From: Microbacteriaceae bacterium
Lineage (GTDB): Bacteria; Actinomycetota; Actinomycetes; Actinomycetales; Microbacteriaceae
Direction of reading: 5' to 3'
DNA: 64,000 nt
Assembly: GCA_025463565.1 (NCBI GenBank)
Contig: JAODAT010000041.1
Location: forward strand, 1-64,000
Under the pieces are notes generated by a model that saw only the letters and a list, made by a program, of their open reading frames with translations, made no database searches and was not told the origin of the DNA. The position numbers and the translations under genes are program-made. This document shows, in pieces, positions 29,815 through 62,337 of the stretch (position 1 is the first letter of the stretch; the number at the start of each line of letters is the position of its first letter).

Positions 29815-29928
29815 CGGTCCTCCTCGCGCGGTGCCCGACTGTGAAGCTCGGTAGTCGTCACGATACGCGCACCCGCCAAGGGCTCCGCTCGGTACGTCCT
29901 CCAAAGTGCGGACCCCCTGTCGGGGGTT

Positions 29929-29973
29929 ACCCGTACTGGGGACTATGGGGGCGACGCGCGGCTCCGTTACAGT
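29929..29973 (+). promoter_or_regulatory. Box ACCC-GTACT-GGGG, 26 nt, TACAGT
   Basis: Same motif as at 33108, 53233 and 61403; a second box ACCCCC-TGTC-GGGGGT lies at 29912-29927. Confidence 0.5.
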
Positions 29974-29974
29974 T

Positions 29975-30093
29975 CTAAAAGCACCACGGGGGACACCTGG
30001 GTGGCGGCGACTTCAGCAAAGTTTGGGCGCGGAATACGGGGGTATATCCGCCGGCTCGCTTCGCGAAAATGAGGTCGCCGCCCCCAAGTTTTT
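29975..30093 (+). ncRNA. Candidate structured small RNA with T5 terminator
   Basis: Stem 29997-30014/30071-30088 (16 of 18 paired) encloses hairpins 30029-30051 and 30056-30066; TTTTT at 30089-30093 directly follows. 5' end is an estimate. Confidence 0.5.
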
Positions 30094-30114
30094 ATGCGCG
30101 GCACCCGACTTCTG

Positions 30115-30282
30115 TCAGTTCGCGCGGTGCAGGTCGTCGTCGGTGAACGGGTCGAGTGCCCGTTCATCCGGCGCTCGCCCGTCGTCGGCCAGCGCGTTCG
30201 GGCGTGGCGCGCGCTTCGCCTTCTTTCGGTCGAAGCTGCCCTGCTCGACAACCGGTTCTGGCTGCGGTTCTTCGTCGGTCAT
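30115..30282 (-). CDS. 55-aa acidic/charged small protein
   Basis: MTDEEPQPEPVVEQGSFDRKKAKRAPRPNALADDGRAPDERALDPFTDDDLHRAN; ATGA-coupled to upstream MFS gene. Confidence 0.5.
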   Translation of the reverse strand: MTDEEPQPEPVVEQGSFDRKKAKRAPRPNALADDGRAPDERALDPFTDDDLHRAN

Positions 30283-31778
30283 GATTCTCCCTGCGGGCCG
30301 GGCGTGTGCTGTACCGGGATGCTCTGCGTGTGACCATACGGCTTCGAGCGTCGCGGGATGAACACGGCCAGCAGAACCCCGGCCAGCAGCACAGCGGCCG
30401 CGATGGCGAACATCGTGTGATACGCGGCGTCGGTGGGCGCCGCCACCCCGTTCCTGATGACGGCGCCGCTCGCCAACACGAGCCCGGCGATGGTTGCCGC
30501 AACGGTCGACCCCAGCATGCGCATCACCGAATTCAGCCCGTTCGCCGCCGCGGTCTCGGTGGGCGGCACGGCGTTCATGATCAGGGTCGGCATCGCGCCG
30601 TAGGAGATGCCGACACCCACACCGACGATCGTCGACACCAGGATCACGTGCCAGACGGCGCTGTGTAGAACGATCGCGACGACGAAGGCCACCACGACGA
30701 TGGCGGCGCCGACGATGAGACTGGTACGCGGCCCACGGGCGGCGGTGAGCCGAGCCGCGAGCGGCGAGATGACGAACATCACGAGGCCGAGTGGCATGAG
30801 GCACAGGCTGGCGAGAATGAGCGAGAGGCCGAGCCCGATGCCCGTCGAGGTGGGCGCCTCCAGCAGGTCGGGAAAGACCGCAGTGGTCACGAAGAACCCG
30901 AAGCCGATGGCGATCGACGTGAGGTTGGTCAGCAGCACCGGGCGTCGTGCCGCTACGCGCAGATCGACGAGAGGGTCGGTCGCGTGCAGCTCGAAGAGAC
31001 CCCATGCCACCAACACGACGACGCCACCGGCCAGGAGCAGCAGGGTGAGCGGGCTGGTCCAGCCCCAGCTGCCGCCCTTGGAGATCCCGAGCAGGATGCA
31101 GACCAGCCCAACACCGAAACCGATCGCACCGGCGAAGTCGAATCGTCCGCCCGAACGCATGGTGCTCACCGGAACGATCGCGATCACCAGAACCAGGCAG
31201 ACGAGCCCGAGCAGCGTCGCCAGCCAGAACAGGTAGTGGAAATCGAGGTTCTGCGCGATGAGCGCTGCGATCGGAAGGCCGACAGCCGCGCCGACGCCGA
31301 GCGTCGCACTGACGAGGGCAACGGCGCCACCGAGACTTTTCGGATGAAGCACGTCGCGCAGGATGCTGATCCCGAGGGAGATGACGCCGAGCGAGACACC
31401 CTGCAGCACTCGGCCGGCGATCATCGGGATGACCGCGGTCGACAGCGCGCAGATGATCGATCCGAGCACCAGTGCGCCGAGCAGGGCCACCAGCAGGCGA
31501 CGCTTTCCGAACATGTCGCCGAGCCGCCCGGCGATGGGAATCGAGATGGCCGCCGCGAGGAGCGTGGCGGTCAACACCCAGGTGGCATCATTCTGCGTAG
31601 CATGCAGCAGGGCGGGCAGTCTCGGGATGATCGGGGTGACGAGGGTCTGCGTGAACGCGGCGACGAGACCCGTGGTGGCGAGCACGGCAGTGATGGCCGA
31701 GTCGCGCGGTCGGCGGCTGAGCGCTCGCCGTTCGCGTGGGGTGAGTGAACCGTCGCCGCTATCGTCGCTGTCACTCAC
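30279..31778 (-). CDS. MFS transporter, DHA2 type
   Basis: TLVTPIIPRLPALL, GRLGDMFGKRRLL, 14-TM-like. Confidence 0.9.
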   Translation of the reverse strand: MSDSDDSGDGSLTPRERRALSRRPRDSAITAVLATTGLVAAFTQTLVTPIIPRLPALLHATQNDATWVLTATLLAAAISIPIAGRLGDMFGKRRLLVALLGALVLGSIICALSTAVIPMIAGRVLQGVSLGVISLGISILRDVLHPKSLGGAVALVSATLGVGAAVGLPIAALIAQNLDFHYLFWLATLLGLVCLVLVIAIVPVSTMRSGGRFDFAGAIGFGVGLVCILLGISKGGSWGWTSPLTLLLLAGGVVVLVAWGLFELHATDPLVDLRVAARRPVLLTNLTSIAIGFGFFVTTAVFPDLLEAPTSTGIGLGLSLILASLCLMPLGLVMFVISPLAARLTAARGPRTSLIVGAAIVVVAFVVAIVLHSAVWHVILVSTIVGVGVGISYGAMPTLIMNAVPPTETAAANGLNSVMRMLGSTVAATIAGLVLASGAVIRNGVAAPTDAAYHTMFAIAAAVLLAGVLLAVFIPRRSKPYGHTQSIPVQHTPGPQGES

Positions 31779-31823: not shown

Positions 31824-33041
31824 CTAGCGGCGGTAGAGCAGGTAGTCGCCCCAGCTGTCGACGCGCCAGTCGATCCAACCGTTGGCTCGCTCGAGCTTGA
31901 CCGTGACCTGGTAATGACCGCCGGCCGGCGAGGTCGCCGCGCAGTAGAACTGGGACCCGACGATGAGAGGCGTCGGGGTGGGGCACTCGACGGCCAATTG
32001 CGCTCCGACGCTCTTCGAGGCGAGCGACACGGACTGCGAGGCCTGCGCGCTGAACACGGTGGGGAACACCGAGATGAGCATGCCGGGCACGACCAGAATC
32101 GACCCGACCTGCAGGATGCCGAGGGCGACCCAGACCAGAAGCGGCCCGAGCCCGACATTGCCGGTGCGGATGAGCGCCGCCGACCTGGCGATGAGGTAGA
32201 CGGGCGCGGTGAGGAATGCCCAGGCCCAGTGCGCGGGGTTTTCGTGGCCGGCACGCTTCAGCATCGCCCGATCGGCGATGGCGAGCACGACGACGATGAT
32301 GTATGGCCCTGCGAAGGTGGCGACCGTGAAGCCGGTGCCGATGATCGAGGTGAGTCCGACGAGCACCATCAGGCCGAACACGAGCTGAAGCAGCGGGAGG
32401 AGTGCGATGATCCAGACCGGACCGGTCGAGACGGGAAGGCGCGGGAACGCGGTCGATCGGGTGTTCTCCGGCTCGGCGGTGCGCGCTCGCTCGCCCTGGG
32501 CCGTCGGCGCCGACACCGCGGAGGTCGCGGACCGCGGCTGGAAAACGTCGTCGAACGATTCGGCGACACCGATATCGCCCTCGTCGACACCGGATCGGTC
32601 GGAATGGCCGGCACGATCTGGAACGGTTGCGGTCGTCATCACGGCATCGTCGAAGGCCTTGTGCGAATGGGCAGTGGTTGACGAACCAGCCAGAACGACC
32701 GGCGGGTCGATCTCGCGCAGGGTCGTGGTAAGCGGCGAATTCGCGGCGGCGGCGTCACGCTCGTCACCGGCGTCGGTCGCGAGCCGCGCGTACTCGTCTT
32801 CCCGCTCACGTTGTTCGCGCTGCTGGCGTCGGGTGGGCAGTTCGTCGTCGGCACGCAGTTCATCGTCGGCATACAGCACCCGGGTCGACGGTGCCGACTG
32901 CTGCTGTTGCTGCATCACGAGGGGCGGTCGCGCCTCTGTCGTGAGCTCGGTCCAGGCGTGGTTGTTCCACCAGCGCAGCTGCGGCAGCCCCATCGGGTCC
33001 GGATACCATCCGGCCGGGACGCTTACGTCGTCGTCGAACAC
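31824..33041 (-). CDS. DUF2510-domain multi-TM membrane protein
   Basis: N-terminal VPAGWYPDPMGLPQLRWWNNHAWTE; C-terminal TM segments and small extracytoplasmic domain. Confidence 0.85.
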   Translation of the reverse strand: MFDDDVSVPAGWYPDPMGLPQLRWWNNHAWTELTTEARPPLVMQQQQQSAPSTRVLYADDELRADDELPTRRQQREQREREDEYARLATDAGDERDAAAANSPLTTTLREIDPPVVLAGSSTTAHSHKAFDDAVMTTATVPDRAGHSDRSGVDEGDIGVAESFDDVFQPRSATSAVSAPTAQGERARTAEPENTRSTAFPRLPVSTGPVWIIALLPLLQLVFGLMVLVGLTSIIGTGFTVATFAGPYIIVVVLAIADRAMLKRAGHENPAHWAWAFLTAPVYLIARSAALIRTGNVGLGPLLVWVALGILQVGSILVVPGMLISVFPTVFSAQASQSVSLASKSVGAQLAVECPTPTPLIVGSQFYCAATSPAGGHYQVTVKLERANGWIDWRVDSWGDYLLYRR

Positions 33042-33077: not shown

Positions 33078-33120
33078 AGATTACTGGGAATTCGACGTGA
33101 GTGCATGCCCCATGAGGGGT
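33078..33120 (-). promoter_or_regulatory. Box ACCC-CTCAT-GGGG, 24 nt, TAATCT upstream of the DUF2510 gene
   Basis: Minus strand ACCCCTCATGGGG (33108-33120), TAATCT (33078-33083); second box CCCCAATGGGG at about 33124-33136. Confidence 0.55.
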
Positions 33121-33174
33121 GATCCCCATTGGGGGGTGCCCGAGGGGGTAGACAGGCGGTGCGGAATGAGGACG

Positions 33175-53232: not shown

Positions 53233-53276
53233 ACCCCGAACTGGGGAGTTTGCCGACGAGCCGGCTCGCCTAGCGT
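53233..53276 (+). promoter_or_regulatory. Box ACCC(C)-GAACT-GGGG, 24 nt, TAGCGT upstream of NERD paralog 1
   Basis: ACCCCGAACTGGGG at 53233-53246, TAGCGT at 53271-53276. Confidence 0.55.
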
Positions 53277-53366
53277 TGTGCCAAAGCACGACACCGTTGG
53301 GGGACGGAAATTACGGTACTAGGGGACGCAGCTGCGGCCCCGCCCAGGGACGACACTGGTGCGGGG

Positions 53367-53411
53367 CCGCTCTCGCATGCCCCGCTCTCGCATGCCCCGC
53401 TCTCGAATGCA
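53367..53411 (+). repeat. 15-bp tandem repeat, three copies
   Basis: CCGCTCTCGCATGCC x2 then CCGCTCTCGAATGCA; in frame with the downstream NERD gene (PLSHA-PLSHA-PLSNA). Confidence 0.9.
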
Positions 53412-53456
53412 CCGAGAACCCCGGCCGAGCGACCCACTTCACCGTCGCTGGCGTCC

Positions 53457-54176
53457 GTGCGCGAGTTTCTCAGGCTCCAGGCTGAGGCTCCCCGGCGCTC
53501 GTTCGCCGCACGAGTCTTCGGAATCGATCCGCTGGCCAGGTCCGCTGCTCACGCCTACGCCGGTGCTCTCGCGGAGGTCGAGGTCGCTGAGCTCCTCGAC
53601 CGCCTCGGCCATGACTGGACGGTTCTGGACACCGTTCCGATCGGTGTGAACGAGCCGCCGGTGGAGCATGTCGTCATCGGGCCGCCCGGGGTGTTCAGCA
53701 TCGCCCTTCGCAATCATGCGGGTGAGCGCGTCTGGGTCGGCGAACGCACCTTCGTCGCCGACGGCACCCGCTTCCCGCACCTCCGCGATGTCGAGGACGA
53801 GTCCGAGATCGTTGCCGCGCGGATGTCCGCGGCGCTGGGTTCCCGCGTCACGGTCACTCCATGCCTGGTTGTCGCATCGGCGGCCGAACTGGTTCTGAGG
53901 GAGAGTCCGAGGCCCGTCGAGGTCTTCGCGCCCACCCGGTTGGCCGAGTGGCTGGCCGAGCTGCCTCGAGTACTGTCACCCCGCGCCGTCGCCGGCTACA
54001 GCACGGTCGGCCTCACCGCCGGCACCTGGTGCGAGCGACAGCCGGGCGGCGAGTGGGATGCCCGGGTCGCCCGCGACGCCGCGAGCGATCGCACCGAGTT
54101 CGCTGCATTCCAGCGCGAGGTCGCGCGGGCGCGACGGCTCCGGTTCGCGTGGCTGCTTCTCGGAATCGCGCTCTAG
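53457..54176 (+). CDS. NERD (nuclease-related) domain protein, paralog 1, degenerate active site
   Basis: Aligns with 61585-62337: RVFGIDP, VEHVVIGPPGVFSIALRNHAG. Start uncertain. Confidence 0.75.
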   Translation: MREFLRLQAEAPRRSFAARVFGIDPLARSAAHAYAGALAEVEVAELLDRLGHDWTVLDTVPIGVNEPPVEHVVIGPPGVFSIALRNHAGERVWVGERTFVADGTRFPHLRDVEDESEIVAARMSAALGSRVTVTPCLVVASAAELVLRESPRPVEVFAPTRLAEWLAELPRVLSPRAVAGYSTVGLTAGTWCERQPGGEWDARVARDAASDRTEFAAFQREVARARRLRFAWLLLGIAL

Positions 54177-54196
54177 CGCAGCACGGCAGTGACCGG

Positions 54197-54943
54197 TCAG
54201 CGTCCTCGGGCGGCCATGCGAACCACGAGGCTGGTAGGCAGAACACTCGCGAGCGCGACGGCGAGCTTGTAGCGCGCGGTCGGGATGGAGATCGCTTTGC
54301 CGCGGGCCACATCCCGCAGCCCCACCCTCACCACGGTCTCCGCCTTCAGCCAGAGGAAACCGGGTACGTCGTCCACGCTGGTGATGCCCATGCGACTGTG
54401 GAACTCGGTGCGTGTGAAGCCCGGCGCGATCGCACTGACCGTGATGCCACGTGAGCGGTAGAAGGCGTTCGCCCAGCGACTGAAACTCAGCACCCACGTC
54501 TTCGCGGCACCGTAGGTCTCGCGCGGTGTGTATCCCGCGACGCTAGCGACAATCACGATCGTTCCGGATGCCCGGGGAAGCATCTGCGACAGCGCGGCAT
54601 GCGTGAGCCGAAGCGGTACCACGATGAGCATCTCGGCGAGGGCCACCTCATCGTCGATCGAGTTTTCAGCGAAGCTTTTCTGCAGACCGAAGCCAGCGTT
54701 GTTGACGAGTAGGTCGATCGGGCGGACCGCGTCGCCGGCGCGCGCCTCGACCAGCGCGAGTCCGGTTGGCGACAGCAGGTCGGCCGGGATCACCTCGACG
54801 TTCACCGGGAGGGTTGTCGCCAGAGCGTCGAGCCGCGTCCTGTCCCGGGCGGTGAGCACCAGGTCGTAACCCTGAGCGGCGAGTTGGCGGGCGAATTCTG
54901 CGCCGAGTCCGGCCGAGGCGCCGGTGATAAGTGCGATGGGCAT
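54197..54943 (-). CDS. SDR-family oxidoreductase
   Basis: ALITGASAGLGAEFARQLA, NNAGFG, YGAAKTWVLSFS. Confidence 0.93.
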   Translation of the reverse strand: MPIALITGASAGLGAEFARQLAAQGYDLVLTARDRTRLDALATTLPVNVEVIPADLLSPTGLALVEARAGDAVRPIDLLVNNAGFGLQKSFAENSIDDEVALAEMLIVVPLRLTHAALSQMLPRASGTIVIVASVAGYTPRETYGAAKTWVLSFSRWANAFYRSRGITVSAIAPGFTRTEFHSRMGITSVDDVPGFLWLKAETVVRVGLRDVARGKAISIPTARYKLAVALASVLPTSLVVRMAARGR

Positions 54944-54980
54944 TGGCTCAACCTAATGCTCCGCTAGCTAAAATGGAGAC

Positions 54981-55778
54981 ATGTCATCGATGATCACCCT
55001 CCCCGTTCCGAATGCCACACTCGCGAGCCTGGGGGAGAGCGGATTCGATTTTCCCACCGACTTCTCCGCGTACGTCGTGCCGCCCACCGGACAAATCAAG
55101 GGTGCGCTGATCGTCATCCACGAGGTCTGGGGGCTGGTCGATCACATCAAAACTGTCGCCGATCGTTTCGCCGCCCAGGGCTACCTCGTTCTCGCGCCCG
55201 ACCTGCTGAGCGCGATCGGCATCGAGGCGCAGGTGGGCGCGGAGCTGTTCACCCTTCGCAATCACCCGGACGAGAAGGTTCGCACCGAAGCCCAGCCCCG
55301 CCTGCGTGACGCCTTCGCGTCGCTCGGCACTCCCGGGTTCACCGAATGGGCGGTCGGTGCTCTCACCGCCGCGGTTGACTACCTCGAGTCGCAGGCCGGA
55401 GTCGACGGACGCATCGCCGTGACCGGGTTCTGCTTCGGTGGAACCTACAGCTTCGCGATCGCCGCAGCGGACTCCCGGGTGAAGGCGGCCATCCCGTTCT
55501 ACGGCAACCCCGGAACCGTCGAGGACTACTCCACGATCTCCGCGCCGATTCTCGCACTGTACGGCGTGAACGACGCGTCCCTCATTGACGGTCTGCCCGA
55601 GGTGACCACGAAGATGGCGGATGCCGGTGTCGACTTCACCTCGAAGGTCTACGAGAACACCGGGCATGCGTTCTTCAACGACACCAACCCGAACAGCTAC
55701 GACCCTGTCGCGGCGGCCGACGCGTGGGAGCGCGCCAATGCGTTCCTTGCCAGCAACCTCCCGTCCGGCAACCTGTAA
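54981..55778 (+). CDS. Dienelactone hydrolase family protein
   Basis: VIHEVWGLVDHIKTVADRFAAQGY, nucleophile GFCFGGTYSF, AFFNDTNPNSYDPVAAADAWER. Confidence 0.92.
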   Translation: MSSMITLPVPNATLASLGESGFDFPTDFSAYVVPPTGQIKGALIVIHEVWGLVDHIKTVADRFAAQGYLVLAPDLLSAIGIEAQVGAELFTLRNHPDEKVRTEAQPRLRDAFASLGTPGFTEWAVGALTAAVDYLESQAGVDGRIAVTGFCFGGTYSFAIAAADSRVKAAIPFYGNPGTVEDYSTISAPILALYGVNDASLIDGLPEVTTKMADAGVDFTSKVYENTGHAFFNDTNPNSYDPVAAADAWERANAFLASNLPSGNL

Positions 55779-55845
55779 GCGAGCGTGCATCCGACTCCGA
55801 GTTCGGTCATAGGCAAGCACAAGGTTCCGGGTTCATTCTCGCTAC

Positions 55846-56991
55846 ATGGACATCGAAGAGCAGCCGACCCCACCCGCGTTCGTCAAGCCCCGCAAGTCGC
55901 GCCACGGTGTGATCATTGCCGGCTGTGTCGCGCTGTCCCTCGGCATCGTCGCCGGCGGCACCGGGATCGCCTGGGCAACGCTCGACCACGCCGCGACTCT
56001 CAGTAGCCAGTCGCAGCCGATTTCGGGCAACACTCCGACCACGCAGAGCCCTCGCTTCCAGCCCGCCTCTCGCACGACGGCCGGCGTCGCTGCAACGAAG
56101 GCGCAGAAGGTCGGTGTCGTCACGGTGCTGTCCACCATCGACTACGACTCGAGCGAACAGGCGGCCGGAACCGGCACCATCCTCACTTCGAGCGGGTACA
56201 TCCTCACCAACAACCACGTGATCGAGGGTGCGACCTCCATCACGGTGACTGTCGAGTCCACGAACAAGACCTACACCGCCACCGTCGTCGGAGAGGATGT
56301 CACCGACGACGTCGCGGTTCTCAAACTGACGAACGCCTCCGGTCTCACCACGGCCAGCTATGACAGTTCGTACACCGCCGCTGTTGGCGACGCGGTGACC
56401 GCCATCGGCAACGCCGGCGGCACCGGCGACCTGGTGTCCGCCACGGGCAGTGTCACGGCCACCGAGCAGGCCATCACCGTGCAGGGCGACAGCACCGATG
56501 AGACGGAGAGCCTCAGCAACCTGATCGAGACCAGCGCGGATGTCGTCGCTGGCGACTCCGGGGGCCCGCTCCTGAATGCCCAGGGCAGGGTGATCGGCAT
56601 GGATACCGCCGCGACCTCAGGTACCCGCGAGACTGCGGGCTACGCCATCCCGATCTCGGAGGCGCTCACGATCGCGAAGCAGATCGAGTCCGGCAAGGTC
56701 GGTGGCAATGTCACGATCGGCTACCCGGCCTTCCTCGGTGTGGAGCTTTCCCGGGAGTCCACCGCGGCAGTGGTCTCCGGTGTGATTGCGGGCACTCCCG
56801 CCGCCACCGCGGGCCTCGCCGCCGGTGACACGATCACCTCGGTCGACGGCACGGCGATCGACAGCGAAGCCGCTCTCAGCCCGTTGATCGCCGCACACAT
56901 GGCCGGTGACAGCGTCACGATCACCTGGACCGACTCGACCGGCGCAGCGAACTCCGCGACCGTCGTTCTGCAATCCGGTCCTGCCGCCTAG
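55846..56991 (+). CDS. HtrA-like trypsin/PDZ serine protease, membrane anchored
   Basis: N-terminal TM; triad ILTNNHVIEGA, DDVAVLKL, VAGDSGGPLLN; C-terminal PDZ. Confidence 0.92.
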   Translation: MDIEEQPTPPAFVKPRKSRHGVIIAGCVALSLGIVAGGTGIAWATLDHAATLSSQSQPISGNTPTTQSPRFQPASRTTAGVAATKAQKVGVVTVLSTIDYDSSEQAAGTGTILTSSGYILTNNHVIEGATSITVTVESTNKTYTATVVGEDVTDDVAVLKLTNASGLTTASYDSSYTAAVGDAVTAIGNAGGTGDLVSATGSVTATEQAITVQGDSTDETESLSNLIETSADVVAGDSGGPLLNAQGRVIGMDTAATSGTRETAGYAIPISEALTIAKQIESGKVGGNVTIGYPAFLGVELSRESTAAVVSGVIAGTPAATAGLAAGDTITSVDGTAIDSEAALSPLIAAHMAGDSVTITWTDSTGAANSATVVLQSGPAA

Positions 56992-58121
56992 CTCGAACGC
57001 AGGTCGACCACGAGATCGCTGATCATGGCGGTGGGCACCAGGCCGAGCACGTCGTGAAGCAGTTTGGTGTACCCGTCGTAGACGCGCAGCGCCTCGGACT
57101 GGTTGCCCTCGGCGAGGTACACCCGCACCAGGGCCGCGTTGGCGCTCTCGCGAAGGGGCTCGACCTTCATTGCCGCTCGTGCGGCGGCGGCGGCCTCCGC
57201 GAGTCTCCCGATCGCGGCGAGCTGGGCGGACAGCGCTTCGAGCGCGTTCATCCTCAGCTGCCGCCACTCGTCGGCTTCGGCGAGAACCCAGTCGTCGTAC
57301 CAGTCGGGGAGAACGTCGGACGACAGCGTTGCGAGCGCTTCCGAATCGAGATCCGCGAGATCGGTCGCGCCACCCGGTCGGAGCAACCGGCCGGCGAGAG
57401 CCTGCGCCGCGCGGAGGTCAACCGCCACGGTGTCGAGGAGGCTGAGGCCCGCCGAGGCGGACAGGATCGACTCGCGGGTCGAGACGTCGAGCCGCGAGAG
57501 AGCCGACCGCAGGCTGATGCCGGCGCGCTCGTCGGTCGCCTCCGGCCACATCTGCCCGGCCATTGCGATCCGTGTGACCGCACGATGGTGAAGCGCGAGA
57601 AATACCAGCAGGCGCTGGGAGCCGACGGCGAGTTCGTCGATCACCTTTCCGCCGACCCGCACGGAGAATGCGCCGAGCAGGGTCATCTCGATGATGAGCG
57701 CATCGGCGCTGACCGGGTCGTCGGGTGACACGAGTCCCGGGGTTTCGACGACTGCATCCTCGTGGACAGTGAACAGCATGCGGGGTTCCGGCGCATGCGA
57801 CCAACCGTCGGACCAGGTCGACAGCGCGATGATCACCGGCTCGAGGTTGCGGCCCTGCTCGGTGAGCCGAAAGCTTCCGGACACCTCGGTCATGAGTTGT
57901 GCCCCCACGAGCGCGGACAGGTGCGACGAGAGAACGTCACGCTCGATGCCGATGGTCGACTCGAAATCGGCGAACCCCGTGACGTTGGCGAACATCGCCG
58001 CCCGCACTATTCGCAGGCTCCACCGATCGCCGACGGCCTCGAGGGCTCGCTCGGGAGAAAAATTGTCCGCTGGAATGCGAGCGGGGACCGGGCCAGCACC
58101 AGAAGGAGGGCCAGACGACAT
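56988..58121 (-). CDS. HxlR-like wHTH fused to SARP-type wHTH and BTAD domain
   Basis: N-terminal ALEAVGDRWSLRIVRAAMFANVTGFADFE; middle MTLLGAFSVRVGGKVIDELAVGSQRLLVFLALHHRAV; BTAD helical region. Confidence 0.8.
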   Translation of the reverse strand: MSSGPPSGAGPVPARIPADNFSPERALEAVGDRWSLRIVRAAMFANVTGFADFESTIGIERDVLSSHLSALVGAQLMTEVSGSFRLTEQGRNLEPVIIALSTWSDGWSHAPEPRMLFTVHEDAVVETPGLVSPDDPVSADALIIEMTLLGAFSVRVGGKVIDELAVGSQRLLVFLALHHRAVTRIAMAGQMWPEATDERAGISLRSALSRLDVSTRESILSASAGLSLLDTVAVDLRAAQALAGRLLRPGGATDLADLDSEALATLSSDVLPDWYDDWVLAEADEWRQLRMNALEALSAQLAAIGRLAEAAAAARAAMKVEPLRESANAALVRVYLAEGNQSEALRVYDGYTKLLHDVLGLVPTAMISDLVVDLRSS

Positions 58122-58335
58122 ATGGTCACCACGTTCTACTTGTGGTGCAATCTTAGCTGTCTGTCCTCCCTGTGAATAGCTGTCGCATCACGATCGCCGC
58201 AGCGACGAGAGGGCCGGCCCGAACCGGCCTCCCGTCGCCAGCAGGGTGGTCACGCCGAGCGTAGCCACCGGCGCCTCCGAGGAACCCCCGTTCCCCGAAA
58301 GCACGATGTTCCGCCGGACAGGCCAGGCGAAACCG

Positions 58336-59448
58336 TCACGCCCGTGCCGTCCTCGGCGCCGGGCGGTTCGATCGGGCAGCTAGCCTCCGGCGGACGGCCG
58401 AGAGGAGTACCAGAACGGTCCCGGCCAGCGCCGTGAGGAGCGCCAACGCCACGGCCACCGTCGCATTCGCTCCCGTGAAGGCGAGCACCGCGGCGCGGCT
58501 TGCGGCCGCTGCTGCGGCCGCAGCCGCTTCGACAGCGGCCGCGTGCTCTAGGGCTCGCTCACTGCGAAGCGTTGCGGAGGAGACAGTCGCGTGGGAGGCG
58601 GCGATCTCACCGAAGGCGCGATCGTCGCTGGTGAGCTTGCTGGATGCGAGCGAAGCACCGGTGGCGACCTGGGCCGAACTCGTCGCGGTTCCACCGGACC
58701 CCGCAGACCCGCGAGCGGGCGGTGCGACCGCCGCGGCGGTAAAGATGTTGCGCACCGATGAGCTACACGTCACCGTACTTCCGCCGCCATTGGCAGACCC
58801 GTTGCACTGGGTTATCCCGACCGGCAGGGCAGACCCATCGCCCGGGTTGACGGTGCAGATCACGCGGCCGTCGCCACCGCCGCCATTCGCCGAGCCGTTG
58901 CACTGCGTGACGGTCGCGCTCGTGGTGCTTGCGATCGGATTGCAGATCGTGGTCGACGTGCCACCTCCGCCACCGGTGCCGATGCACTGGTTCACGGAGA
59001 AGCCCGAAAGCCCGATCGTTCCGGTGATGTTGTTCACGATGGTGACCGAGCAGGCAAGCGTTGATCCACCGCCATTTACCGAGTTATTGCACTGGTTGAC
59101 CGAGGTCACCACGAATGTCGCGGGCAGGGTCGACACCGTGCAGCTCGACGGAGCAGTGTTGGCTGCTCCCCGGCATGCCTTCACGACCGTGGACGAGCTC
59201 ATGGCCCCCGTTGCGGAGTTGAAGTAGTTGTTGACCGTCACATCGCAGGAGATGAGCAGCCCCGGCGTATTGCTGTCGTAATTGCACTGGCTGATCACCA
59301 GCGGGGTGGCGGCCGTTGCTGGCGTTGCCCCCTGCGCCAGAACGAACCCCGCCACCACGACAAGAGCTCCTAACAGGGCGGTGGTTACCCTCATCTTTCG
59401 CCCCGTGTGGATTTTGCCGATCCTTGAAACAATCCCCTGATACCCCAT
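58336..59448 (-). CDS. Secreted Cys-rich QCN-repeat surface protein with LAFTG sorting signal
   Basis: Signal peptide ending ..PATAAT; five QCN/QCI repeats; C-terminal LAFTGANATVAVALALLTALAGTVLVLLSAVRRRLAAR. Confidence 0.8.
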   Translation of the reverse strand: MGYQGIVSRIGKIHTGRKMRVTTALLGALVVVAGFVLAQGATPATAATPLVISQCNYDSNTPGLLISCDVTVNNYFNSATGAMSSSTVVKACRGAANTAPSSCTVSTLPATFVVTSVNQCNNSVNGGGSTLACSVTIVNNITGTIGLSGFSVNQCIGTGGGGGTSTTICNPIASTTSATVTQCNGSANGGGGDGRVICTVNPGDGSALPVGITQCNGSANGGGSTVTCSSSVRNIFTAAAVAPPARGSAGSGGTATSSAQVATGASLASSKLTSDDRAFGEIAASHATVSSATLRSERALEHAAAVEAAAAAAAAASRAAVLAFTGANATVAVALALLTALAGTVLVLLSAVRRRLAARSNRPAPRTARA

Positions 59449-59528
59449 GTGAAACCCCCAGAACTGCATCATCGGACCCGGGTCGTTACGGAGGCGTCAC
59501 CGGAATGTGACGGGGGTGTACAGGCTTG

Positions 59529-59564
59529 TCTGTGCCGTCGGTAAAATCTGTGCCGCCGGTAAAA
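59529..59564. repeat. 18-bp tandem repeat, two copies
   Basis: TCTGTGCCGTCGGTAAAA / TCTGTGCCGCCGGTAAAA between MarP-like and QCN-repeat genes. Confidence 0.85.
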
Positions 59565-59578
59565 ACGGTGCCAACGCT

Positions 59579-60763
59579 CTATTCGGTCGTGCAGTGGCCG
59601 GATGCGACGGGGTTCGAAAATGACGCGGCCTGGGTCGCGACCGGCACCAGTTCGGCGGTGGTGAGTGCGAATCCGACGTTCTGTGTCGTCGATGACTTCG
59701 CGAAGACGACGCCGGCCACATGACCATTCGCATCCAGCACCGGGCCGCCAGAATTGCCCTGCTCGACGTCCGCCGCCAGTGAGTAGACCTCGCGGTCGGA
59801 GGTGTTTGTTCCGTAGATGTCCGGAACCCGAACGGTGCTCACGCCCTGCACAGCTGCGGGCTTCGAGCTGAACGGTCCGCCGAGCGGGTAGCCGTCGAAG
59901 ACCGCGCTCGCGCCGGTCGGCAAAGTGGCGCCGATCTTCAGGGCGGCCGTCGGCATCCCGGAGACCGCGACCACCGCGAGGTCACCCACCGGGTCGAAGT
60001 AGACGACACGGCCGGTCCAGCTGCCACCGTCGGGCGCGACCACCACGGGTTCGGTGACCCCGGCGACGACGTGCGCGTTCGTGATGACGCGATCTGCGGA
60101 GACCACGAATCCGCTGCCGGACTGGTTCTGGCCGCACGCGTACGCGTTGCCGGTGATCTTGACGACGGAATGGGCGGCCAGCGCCTGGGCGGCATCGGCC
60201 CCGTCGGTCGGGATGGGCAGCGGACTGCCTGCACCGATCGAGTCGAGGAGACGCGGGATGCCCTGCTGGCTGATCGCCGCCCGCACGCGAGCCTCCAGGT
60301 CGCCGACGGGAGCGGGTGTCACAGCGTTGATCGCCGCGACCACACGCGAGCTGGCGATCGCGTCGGACACGAACGGGATTCCCAGCGACCCGATGCTGAA
60401 GGCCAGCATCGAGATGACAGCCGAGGTGGCGACCAGCGACACCAGCATGCCGAGCACGCGGTCGGCCGTGCGCAGCGCACCCTTCGGCACGCCGCGGCTG
60501 ATCGCCCGGCCGATGGCCGTGCCGAGCACGAAGCCGGCGACGATCAGTCCGGCGACGACGAACAGGATGGTGGGCAGGCGCCAGAAGCTGGTGCCAACGA
60601 GTCCGGTGACGAACGGGATCGCGAAAAAGGCGAGAATCGTGCCGGCAATCACGCCAAGGATGCCGCCGAGGCTCAGTGCGAAGCCGCGACGGTAGCCGTA
60701 GACCGCCCACGCCACCAGTACGGCGATGAGCAGCACATCGAGCAGCACCGATCCGGGGGTCAC
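59579..60763 (-). CDS. MarP-family membrane serine protease (CvpA + trypsin domains)
   Basis: CvpA-like N-terminal TMs; GSGFVVSADRVITNAHVVAGV, DLAVVAV, EQGNSGGPVLD. Confidence 0.9.
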   Translation of the reverse strand: MTPGSVLLDVLLIAVLVAWAVYGYRRGFALSLGGILGVIAGTILAFFAIPFVTGLVGTSFWRLPTILFVVAGLIVAGFVLGTAIGRAISRGVPKGALRTADRVLGMLVSLVATSAVISMLAFSIGSLGIPFVSDAIASSRVVAAINAVTPAPVGDLEARVRAAISQQGIPRLLDSIGAGSPLPIPTDGADAAQALAAHSVVKITGNAYACGQNQSGSGFVVSADRVITNAHVVAGVTEPVVVAPDGGSWTGRVVYFDPVGDLAVVAVSGMPTAALKIGATLPTGASAVFDGYPLGGPFSSKPAAVQGVSTVRVPDIYGTNTSDREVYSLAADVEQGNSGGPVLDANGHVAGVVFAKSSTTQNVGFALTTAELVPVATQAASFSNPVASGHCTTE

Positions 60764-60834
60764 CGCTGAATCGTACTTGGCCGAGCCCTAGAAAACCCCG
60801 AACAGGCTGGTGGACACGGCAGGGTCTTCACCGG

Positions 60835-61380
60835 CTATGCGTGCCGGGGCATCATCAGCAGCGTCGACACGCTCACGACGATGAGCAGGATCGCCCCGAT
60901 CGTGATGAACGCAAGCAACGCGGCGGCAGGAAGCAGGACGGCCACCACCCCGGCGATCACCGAGATCACGCCACTCACCCAGCCGTACCAGGCGGGGGTG
61001 ACCGTGTGGCGGATGGCGGCGAGGATGTCGACGGCCCCTTCCGCGATCCAGCCGATGCCGATCAGGATGCCGAGCACGCTCAGCGACGAGAACGGGTCGG
61101 CGAGGCAGAAGATACCGGCGAGCACGACGAGCAGTCCGATGCCTGCGGTGATCCAGCGGAGCATCGTGCTCAGGCTGCTGACGGTGAGCGCGGTGACGAT
61201 CCGGAAGATGCCGGAGGCGACCAGGTAGGCGCCGAAGATGATCGCGACGGTGATGAGGCTCACGCCTGGGAGGGCAAGCGCGGCGATGCCGAGCACGATG
61301 CCGATGACGGAGACGGCGATGAGCGCGCCACGGTTGATGCGGATCATTCCGGGAACGGTTGGGGCGAAGAGTGAGGTCAT
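60835..61380 (-). CDS. HdeD/DUF308-family membrane protein
   Basis: Six-TM ORF with LGIAALALPGVSLITVAIIFGAYLVASGIFRI. Confidence 0.85.
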   Translation of the reverse strand: MTSLFAPTVPGMIRINRGALIAVSVIGIVLGIAALALPGVSLITVAIIFGAYLVASGIFRIVTALTVSSLSTMLRWITAGIGLLVVLAGIFCLADPFSSLSVLGILIGIGWIAEGAVDILAAIRHTVTPAWYGWVSGVISVIAGVVAVLLPAAALLAFITIGAILLIVVSVSTLLMMPRHA

Positions 61381-61402
61381 GCCGAAAGTCTGGCACGCAC
61401 GC

Positions 61403-61445
61403 ACCCGTTCTGGGGATGCCGTTTTTGATCGGTGACCAATAGCCT
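61403..61445 (+). promoter_or_regulatory. Box ACCC-GTTCT-GGGG, 24 nt, TAGCCT upstream of NERD paralog 2
   Basis: ACCCGTTCTGGGG at 61403-61415, TAGCCT at 61440-61445. Confidence 0.55.
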
Positions 61446-61584
61446 GTAGTCAGATTCATCCGGCTCGGGGGAGCCACGACCTTTCGGGCATGGGGGAGCC
61501 ATTACCGACGTAACCACAGGCGGGGCCGGTCAGCCGACGACTGGTCAACCGACCCTGCGCGCACGAGCAGCGGCGTACGCCGTC

Positions 61585-62337
61585 ATGCGGCAGTGCCTGC
61601 ACGCGCAAGCGCTGGCGCGGCCTCGTTCTGCCGTAGCGCGGGTGTTCGGGGTGGATCCGCTGCACCCGGATGCCGTCGGCCGGTACCGGGACGCGATCGG
61701 CGAACTCGAGGTGGGCGCGCTGCTCTCCCGTCTGGGCGACGCCTTTACGGTGTTGCACGCCGTGCCGGTCGGCGACGGGGACTCTGATATCGATCATGTG
61801 GTGATCGGGCCGCCCGGCATCTTCACGATCAAGACCAAGAACCTCGCGGGACGCAAGGTGCTCGCCGCGGGCAACAGCGTGCTCGTCGACGGCCAGCAGA
61901 CCGATTTCGTGCGCAACTCGCTGTTCGAAGCGCGGCGGGCGTCTGAGCTGATTCGCCGGGCGAGTGGCGGTGTCGTGAACGTCACGCCGCTCATCGTGGT
62001 GGTCGGCGTCGAGACGGTGACCAGTGGTGCAAAGCCCGCCGCGGTGACCGTGTTGCCGGCGTCTCGGTTGCTCGGATTTCTCAAGCACGAGCCACTGGTG
62101 CTGCGACCGGAAGCCGTCGCCTACTACCTGCACGCGGCCCAGGATCGCGCGACCTGGCATGCCGTCGCGAACGACCCGACGGACTCGCTCCGCATCGCGC
62201 AGCGTTTCGACCGGCTTCGCCAGGAGGTGACGACGGCGTCGCGTCGTCGCACCCTCTGGCGTTTCGGCGGAACGGTTGTGGCGGCGCTCGTCATCGTCGG
62301 CGTCGCGCTCGGTGTACTGCACACGCTGCGTCCGTAG
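61585..62337 (+). CDS. NERD domain protein, paralog 2, canonical core plus C-terminal TM
   Basis: DSDIDHVVIGPPGIFTIKTKNLAGRKV and C-terminal TM VVAALVIVGVALGVL. Confidence 0.88.
   Translation: MRQCLHAQALARPRSAVARVFGVDPLHPDAVGRYRDAIGELEVGALLSRLGDAFTVLHAVPVGDGDSDIDHVVIGPPGIFTIKTKNLAGRKVLAAGNSVLVDGQQTDFVRNSLFEARRASELIRRASGGVVNVTPLIVVVGVETVTSGAKPAAVTVLPASRLLGFLKHEPLVLRPEAVAYYLHAAQDRATWHAVANDPTDSLRIAQRFDRLRQEVTTASRRRTLWRFGGTVVAALVIVGVALGVLHTLRP

Follow-up and report, generated by a model that had tools for sequence, protein, structure and literature searches.

A promoter box shared by NERD genes and a new structured RNA in Microbacteriaceae, with a possible link to 6C RNA

Do promoters scattered over one stretch of an actinobacterial genome share a common control signal, and what would that signal regulate? 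The question is raised by a Microbacteriaceae contig (JAODAT010000041.1, assembly GCA_025463565.1), of which a stretch of 64,000 nucleotides, hereafter the window, was analysed. The initial annotation had described a CCC/GGGG box at a fixed distance from a -10-like hexamer upstream of two NERD-domain genes (NERD1 and NERD2), a gene for a DUF2510 membrane protein and a possible small RNA (sRNA), and had proposed that these form a regulon. Direct reading of the sequence found all four boxes and hexamers where they had been reported, with spacers of 24, 24, 24 and 26 nt. On the plus strand, box ACCCCGAACTGGGG (53233..53246) is followed after 24 nt by TAGCGT (53271..53276) upstream of NERD1, box ACCCGTTCTGGGG (61403..61415) after 24 nt by TAGCCT (61440..61445) upstream of NERD2, and box ACCCGTACTGGGG (29929..29941) after 26 nt by TACAGT (29968..29973) upstream of the sRNA; on the minus strand, box ACCCCTCATGGGG (33108..33120) stands 24 nt from TAATCT (33078..33083) in the DUF2510 promoter. 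The second boxes claimed at two of these loci are also present, CCCCCTGTCGGGGG in tandem at the sRNA promoter (29913..29926, plus strand) and ACCCCCCAATGGGG distal to the DUF2510 box (33124..33137, minus strand).

A short motif of this kind proves little by itself, as the counts in the window and in its own genome are marginal: ACCCN4TGGGG occurs three times in the window against 0.57 expected, with 3 of 100 shuffles reaching three, and 24 times in the whole genome against 15 for the reversed control. Judging the motif by the window alone was set aside as too weak to decide. The comparison with controls that the initial annotation had proposed was carried out by pattern searches at genome scale with the reversed pattern as control, and here the motif clearly exceeded it: CCN4YTGGGG-N24-TAN3T gave 31 matches versus 8 in 13 same-genus genomes, and, with one mismatch allowed, 87 versus 16 in 200 genomes of the family. 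Upstream of NERD1 orthologs in the same genus the CC-N-TGGGG box is kept, with TAnnnT about 24 nt later (24 in most orthologs), while the surrounding sequence has diverged; box-like sites were also found upstream of NERD1 homologs in other genera. When six NERD regions of 15-20 kb were scanned for box plus -10 (using, among the homologs from tblastn, only NERD1 matches), nearly all matches lay just upstream of NERD paralogs, with the consensus CCCGTTCTGGGG and a -10 that is often of the TAGCCT/TAGCGT type. The consensus is near-palindromic and often occurs in tandem at about 15 bp.

The orphan promoter gave the second line of evidence. Four same-genus loci, found via the box, resemble window positions 29979-30091 after the -10 hexamer, and together with the window sequence they fold as one long hairpin with compensatory changes at 12 of 38 pairs, in an RNAalifold fold on an alignment that was not fitted to the structure. 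A covariance model of the transcript alone then found six homologs in other genera, each with a box upstream. An alignment of 14 sequences showed double changes at 28 of 38 pairs and 92% of cells paired, and none of 500 shuffles was as high on any measure, while slid controls collapsed; this alignment was fitted to the structure, and the figure from the unfitted five-sequence alignment still stands beside it. Covariation supports the helices, as is expected of a structured non-coding RNA. A small open reading frame in the transcript was considered and rejected: the indels that separate relatives do not come in multiples of three, which marks the transcript as non-coding. The RNA (29979..30093, plus strand) has a 5' G-tract (29988-29992), the long hairpin with apical UACGGGGGUA and its G-tract (30038-30042) at the tip, and a closing stem plus T-run.

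A second transcript model gave one match per genome in 35 of 400 family genomes, spread over 11 genera, and an order-wide search of 347 genomes, a sample rich in genera that do not have the sRNA, returned none besides the window's own genome, so that the RNA looks restricted to the family. Three metagenome-assembled genomes, assigned to Glaciihabitans sp., Frigoribacterium sp. and Actinomycetota, also contain copies (L155, L157, L159); their sequences suggest that these genomes are identical with G165, G007 and G222. Two further matches from the contig scan (L156, L158) have neither box nor hairpin and were discarded as chance. Rfam 15 gave no gathering match in the window, and only chance matches (E 0.7-2) in 29880-30150. 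What had been put forward as a possible sRNA is, from comparative evidence, well supported as a new, previously undescribed structured RNA of about 115 nt. It might instead act in cis, as a riboswitch or attenuator in the leader of a downstream gene, a reading for which one could cite the short gene beginning MIS... downstream in G005, G007, G003 and G011 and the missing U-tract in most homologs; against these stand the U-tract that does follow the stem in the window and in G008, the convergent orientation of the next window gene (MFS, 30279-31778, minus strand) and the lack of conservation in the DNA 3' of the sRNA, and we consider a cis-acting leader improbable.

Since the promoter had been left out of the transcript model, the sRNA loci confirm the box independently. 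In 30 of 30 inspected loci a box precedes TAnnnT, at 24 nt (8 loci), 25 nt (21) or 26 nt (1), compared with 3 of 4751 random flanking segments, and 18 of the 30 carry a tandem second box whose G-run lies 10-11 nt before the proximal TGGGG. Were the box chance G/C-rich sequence, or the terminators of upstream genes, as the barely elevated window count might allow, neither this result nor the 31:8 and 87:16 ratios would be expected; the box moreover keeps its position from genus to genus as the neighbouring sequence turns over, and no T-run follows it. That explanation is hardly credible, and the box is well supported by these comparisons as a conserved promoter element in Microbacteriaceae.

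As to what binds there, the box lies at about -49 to -37, no -35 is recognisable, and the distance to the -10 is fixed (24-26 nt in all 30 sRNA loci, mostly 24 in NERD loci). This is the geometry of a class-II-type activator promoter, with the box over a poor -35, and fits the activator-type position that the initial annotation had suggested. The near-palindromic box, its tandem copies and its position over the -35 suggest a dimeric activator. A repressor operator, for example of a CsoR-type protein with C-tract/G-tract palindromes, would also account for a near-palindromic CCC-N4-GGGG, and repressors too bind near -35, but the constant spacing in 30 of 30 loci, the missing -35 and the second copies upstream are the marks of activator sites, and a repressor seems unlikely.

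The third proposed member, the DUF2510 gene (31824..33041, minus strand), adjoins the sRNA at about 2-6 kb in the window and in several genomes of the genus. The -10 region around its TAATCT is strongly conserved, and a CCC...GGGG box stands at the right distance in 7 of 10 genomes, a less strict conservation than in the orthologous NERD promoters and the sRNA loci. The regulon as first proposed is largely upheld by these comparisons, with the NERD genes and the sRNA as well-backed members and DUF2510 as a weaker one. Genes 3' of box matches encode NERD, type IV prepilin-like, DUF2510, secreted and surface proteins.

A possible second regulatory layer, absent from the initial account, is suggested by G-tracts that recur in the mRNA leaders and in the sRNA. 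The NERD1 leader contains TTGGGGGA (53297..53304, plus strand), a predicted ribosome-binding site and the complement of the 6C loop UCCCCCAA, and this is its one occurrence in the window. The NERD2 leader (plus strand) has a GGCT-CGGGGG-AGCC hairpin (61462..61475) and a second G-tract, GGGGGA (61492..61497), directly before the probable start. Leaders of NERD paralogs, of both NERD1 and NERD2 type, show TTGGGGGA or a variant of it 3-5 nt before the start; five G near a start is rare elsewhere (9 of 99 genes under a liberal test, 4 of these 9 being NERD genes). In the sRNA, apical ACGGGGGT and a 5' run of 4-6 G are each present in 30 of 30 loci, and in one genus (L187-L191) the 5' element reads CTAG-TTGGGGGA-CTAG.

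The 6C RNA (B11; RF01066) represses through C-rich loops that pair with G-tract ribosome-binding sites, either loop being sufficient, and the G-tract sites of the NERD leaders resemble that of the verified target eccB4 of M. abscessus (PMC10470900). A 6C-like RNA whose two loops read UUCCCCCCAA, complementary to TTGGGGGA, was found by a relaxed-threshold search in 11 of 13 genomes of the genus, including the window's own (G000:C28:14872-14944; 37.5 bits, two C6 loops). No box was seen upstream of the 6C-like genes. The new sRNA differs from 6C in architecture, being a single long hairpin whose apical loop is G-rich and having no pair of hairpins with C-rich loops, and in having its own box-driven promoter. 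As a separate observation, a TTTAAC-type tail at the 3' end is common to the sRNA of several genera (L152, L180, L181, L186-L191) and to the 6C-like RNAs (L160-L170).

A mechanism can be proposed that would join these elements. The box would be the predicted binding site of a transcriptional activator, placed over the -35 of sigma-70-type promoters with no good -35 of their own, and this activator would drive the NERD genes, some DUF2510 and surface or secreted protein genes, and the sRNA. Many of the resulting mRNAs would carry a TTGGGGGA-type G-tract ribosome-binding site whose sequence complements both C6 loops of 6C, and on account of that complementarity should be repressed by it. The co-induced sRNA, exposing two G-tracts, would titrate 6C as a decoy, so that the activator would both make the mRNAs and relieve their repression. 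From the sequences we infer protein binding, activation, the transcription starts, pairing with 6C in the cell and the decoy function. Taken whole, with activator box, 6C-target mRNAs and sRNA decoy, this explanation seems to us somewhat better than an even bet.

Several observations weigh against it. Some family-wide box matches precede unrelated genes or fall inside genes. The DUF2510 box is absent in 3 of 10 genomes, and the DUF2510 start has no G-tract, its duplex with 6C being no better than those of shuffles. The 6C-like matches score 34-39 bits, below the 47-bit Rfam cut-off for RF01066; the Rfam model appears to under-detect Microbacteriaceae copies. Duplexes between 6C loops and their predicted targets, with energies of -11.6 to -17.1 kcal/mol, agree with the proposal but do not prove it, and those of the two sRNA G-tracts with the 6C loops are only slightly better than expected from sequences of the same composition, 2.7 to 7% of the shuffles doing as well. 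A good score against C6 is to be expected of any G-run, and the decoy argument therefore rests on conservation. Finally, the sRNA occurs in 35 of 400 family genomes and the box more widely, so a decoy cannot be essential.

That 6C does not stand out by its duplex energies also bears on a competing explanation, in which box and sRNA are real and the G-tracts of the sRNA bind either a protein that recognises GGGGG loops, as in CsrA/RsmZ-like decoys, or C-rich regions of mRNAs. The conserved apical UACGGGGGUA and 5' G-tract, kept in all 30 loci, could be protein-bound motifs, and the G-tracts in small hairpins of the NERD leaders can be read in the same way. To our knowledge, no GGGGG-loop-binding protein of the CsrA-like decoy kind has been described in Actinobacteria, and both the TT before the G-run of TTGGGGGA and the CTAG-TTGGGGGA-CTAG element match the 6C loop UCCCCCAA beyond what a plain G-run would give; this alternative is rather doubtful. 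The proposed 6C decoy resembles the sponges and decoys of the CsrB/RsmZ type, in that a small RNA shows several copies of the target motif and would be co-induced with the targets, and differs from the CsrB/RsmZ type in that the titrated partner would be the sRNA 6C and not a CsrA-type protein.

If the decoy exists, the arrangement would be a family-specific feed-forward loop, in which the activator induces 6C-target mRNAs along with a G-tract sponge that neutralises 6C; this we hold tentatively, as somewhat short of an even chance. The sponge would then be the first antagonist to be described for 6C, an RNA widely conserved in Actinobacteria, and no paper on a 6C sponge was found in the open-access literature. 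The claim that a natural sponge exists for an sRNA conserved across Actinobacteria is directly testable. The regulon and the new RNA family, defined by sequence alone, lie in a large and little-studied family, and the NERD and DUF2510 proteins, of obscure function, gain a shared regulatory context.

As for the activator itself, inspection of gene neighbourhoods recognised no transcription factor shared across the NERD clusters examined. Between the two NERD genes of the window lies a regulator gene (56988-58121, minus strand) whose product combines an HxlR-like helix-turn-helix with a BTAD domain (SARP/HxlR-like); it did not appear among the genes listed for two related clusters and was dropped as a candidate. 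Autoregulated candidates of LuxR type (L146) and MarR type (L087) had the box in one genome each and were not convincing. Among known systems, the PafBC promoters of the mycobacterial DNA damage regulon are likewise activator-dependent, with a box at a fixed distance from the -10, but the PafBC sequence is of TTGTC type and is not the box found here. The motifs of the LuxR-type regulator RamA of Corynebacterium glutamicum are A/T/C-GGGG-N and A/T/C-CCCC-N (PMC4847777). Such GGGG/CCCC half-sites are present here as CCC(C)/TGGGG; the fixed CCC-N4-TGGGG arrangement, the 24-26 nt to the -10 and the target genes are different.

The NERD genes raise a further point, concerning their starts. Both window proteins exceed the gathering cut-off of PF08378 (27.2 and 46.0 bits versus 22.1), and 48 of 99 relatives have a NERD1 homolog. 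The NERD1 frame (53310..54176, plus strand; next in-frame GTG at 53457) and the NERD2 frame (61501..62337, plus strand; first in-frame ATG at 61585) have no ATG, GTG or TTG at the start position of their paralogs; both have ATT there (53310 and 61501), the probable starts, directly after a GGGGGA ribosome-binding site. In same-genus NERD1 relatives this position is ATC, and in 8 of 8 of them a TTG or GTG also lies in frame a few codons further upstream. For that reason conserved AUU/AUC initiation, as in infC, is put forward only as possible; the ATT starts may also stem from a frame error in the assembled sequence of the window. In another NERD gene (L134) the ATG lies 7 nt after the -10, and its transcript is probably leaderless.

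Box variants were also noted at other genes. In one genus, type IV prepilin-like genes (L129, L130, L131) are preceded by CCCGTTCTCGGG-N24-TACGCT. In the window's own genome, further box-like promoters stand before secreted or surface protein genes at C1:19863, C54:55157 and C161:3394 (L093, L016 and L210), and at the first two of these GGGGGGAA precedes the start.

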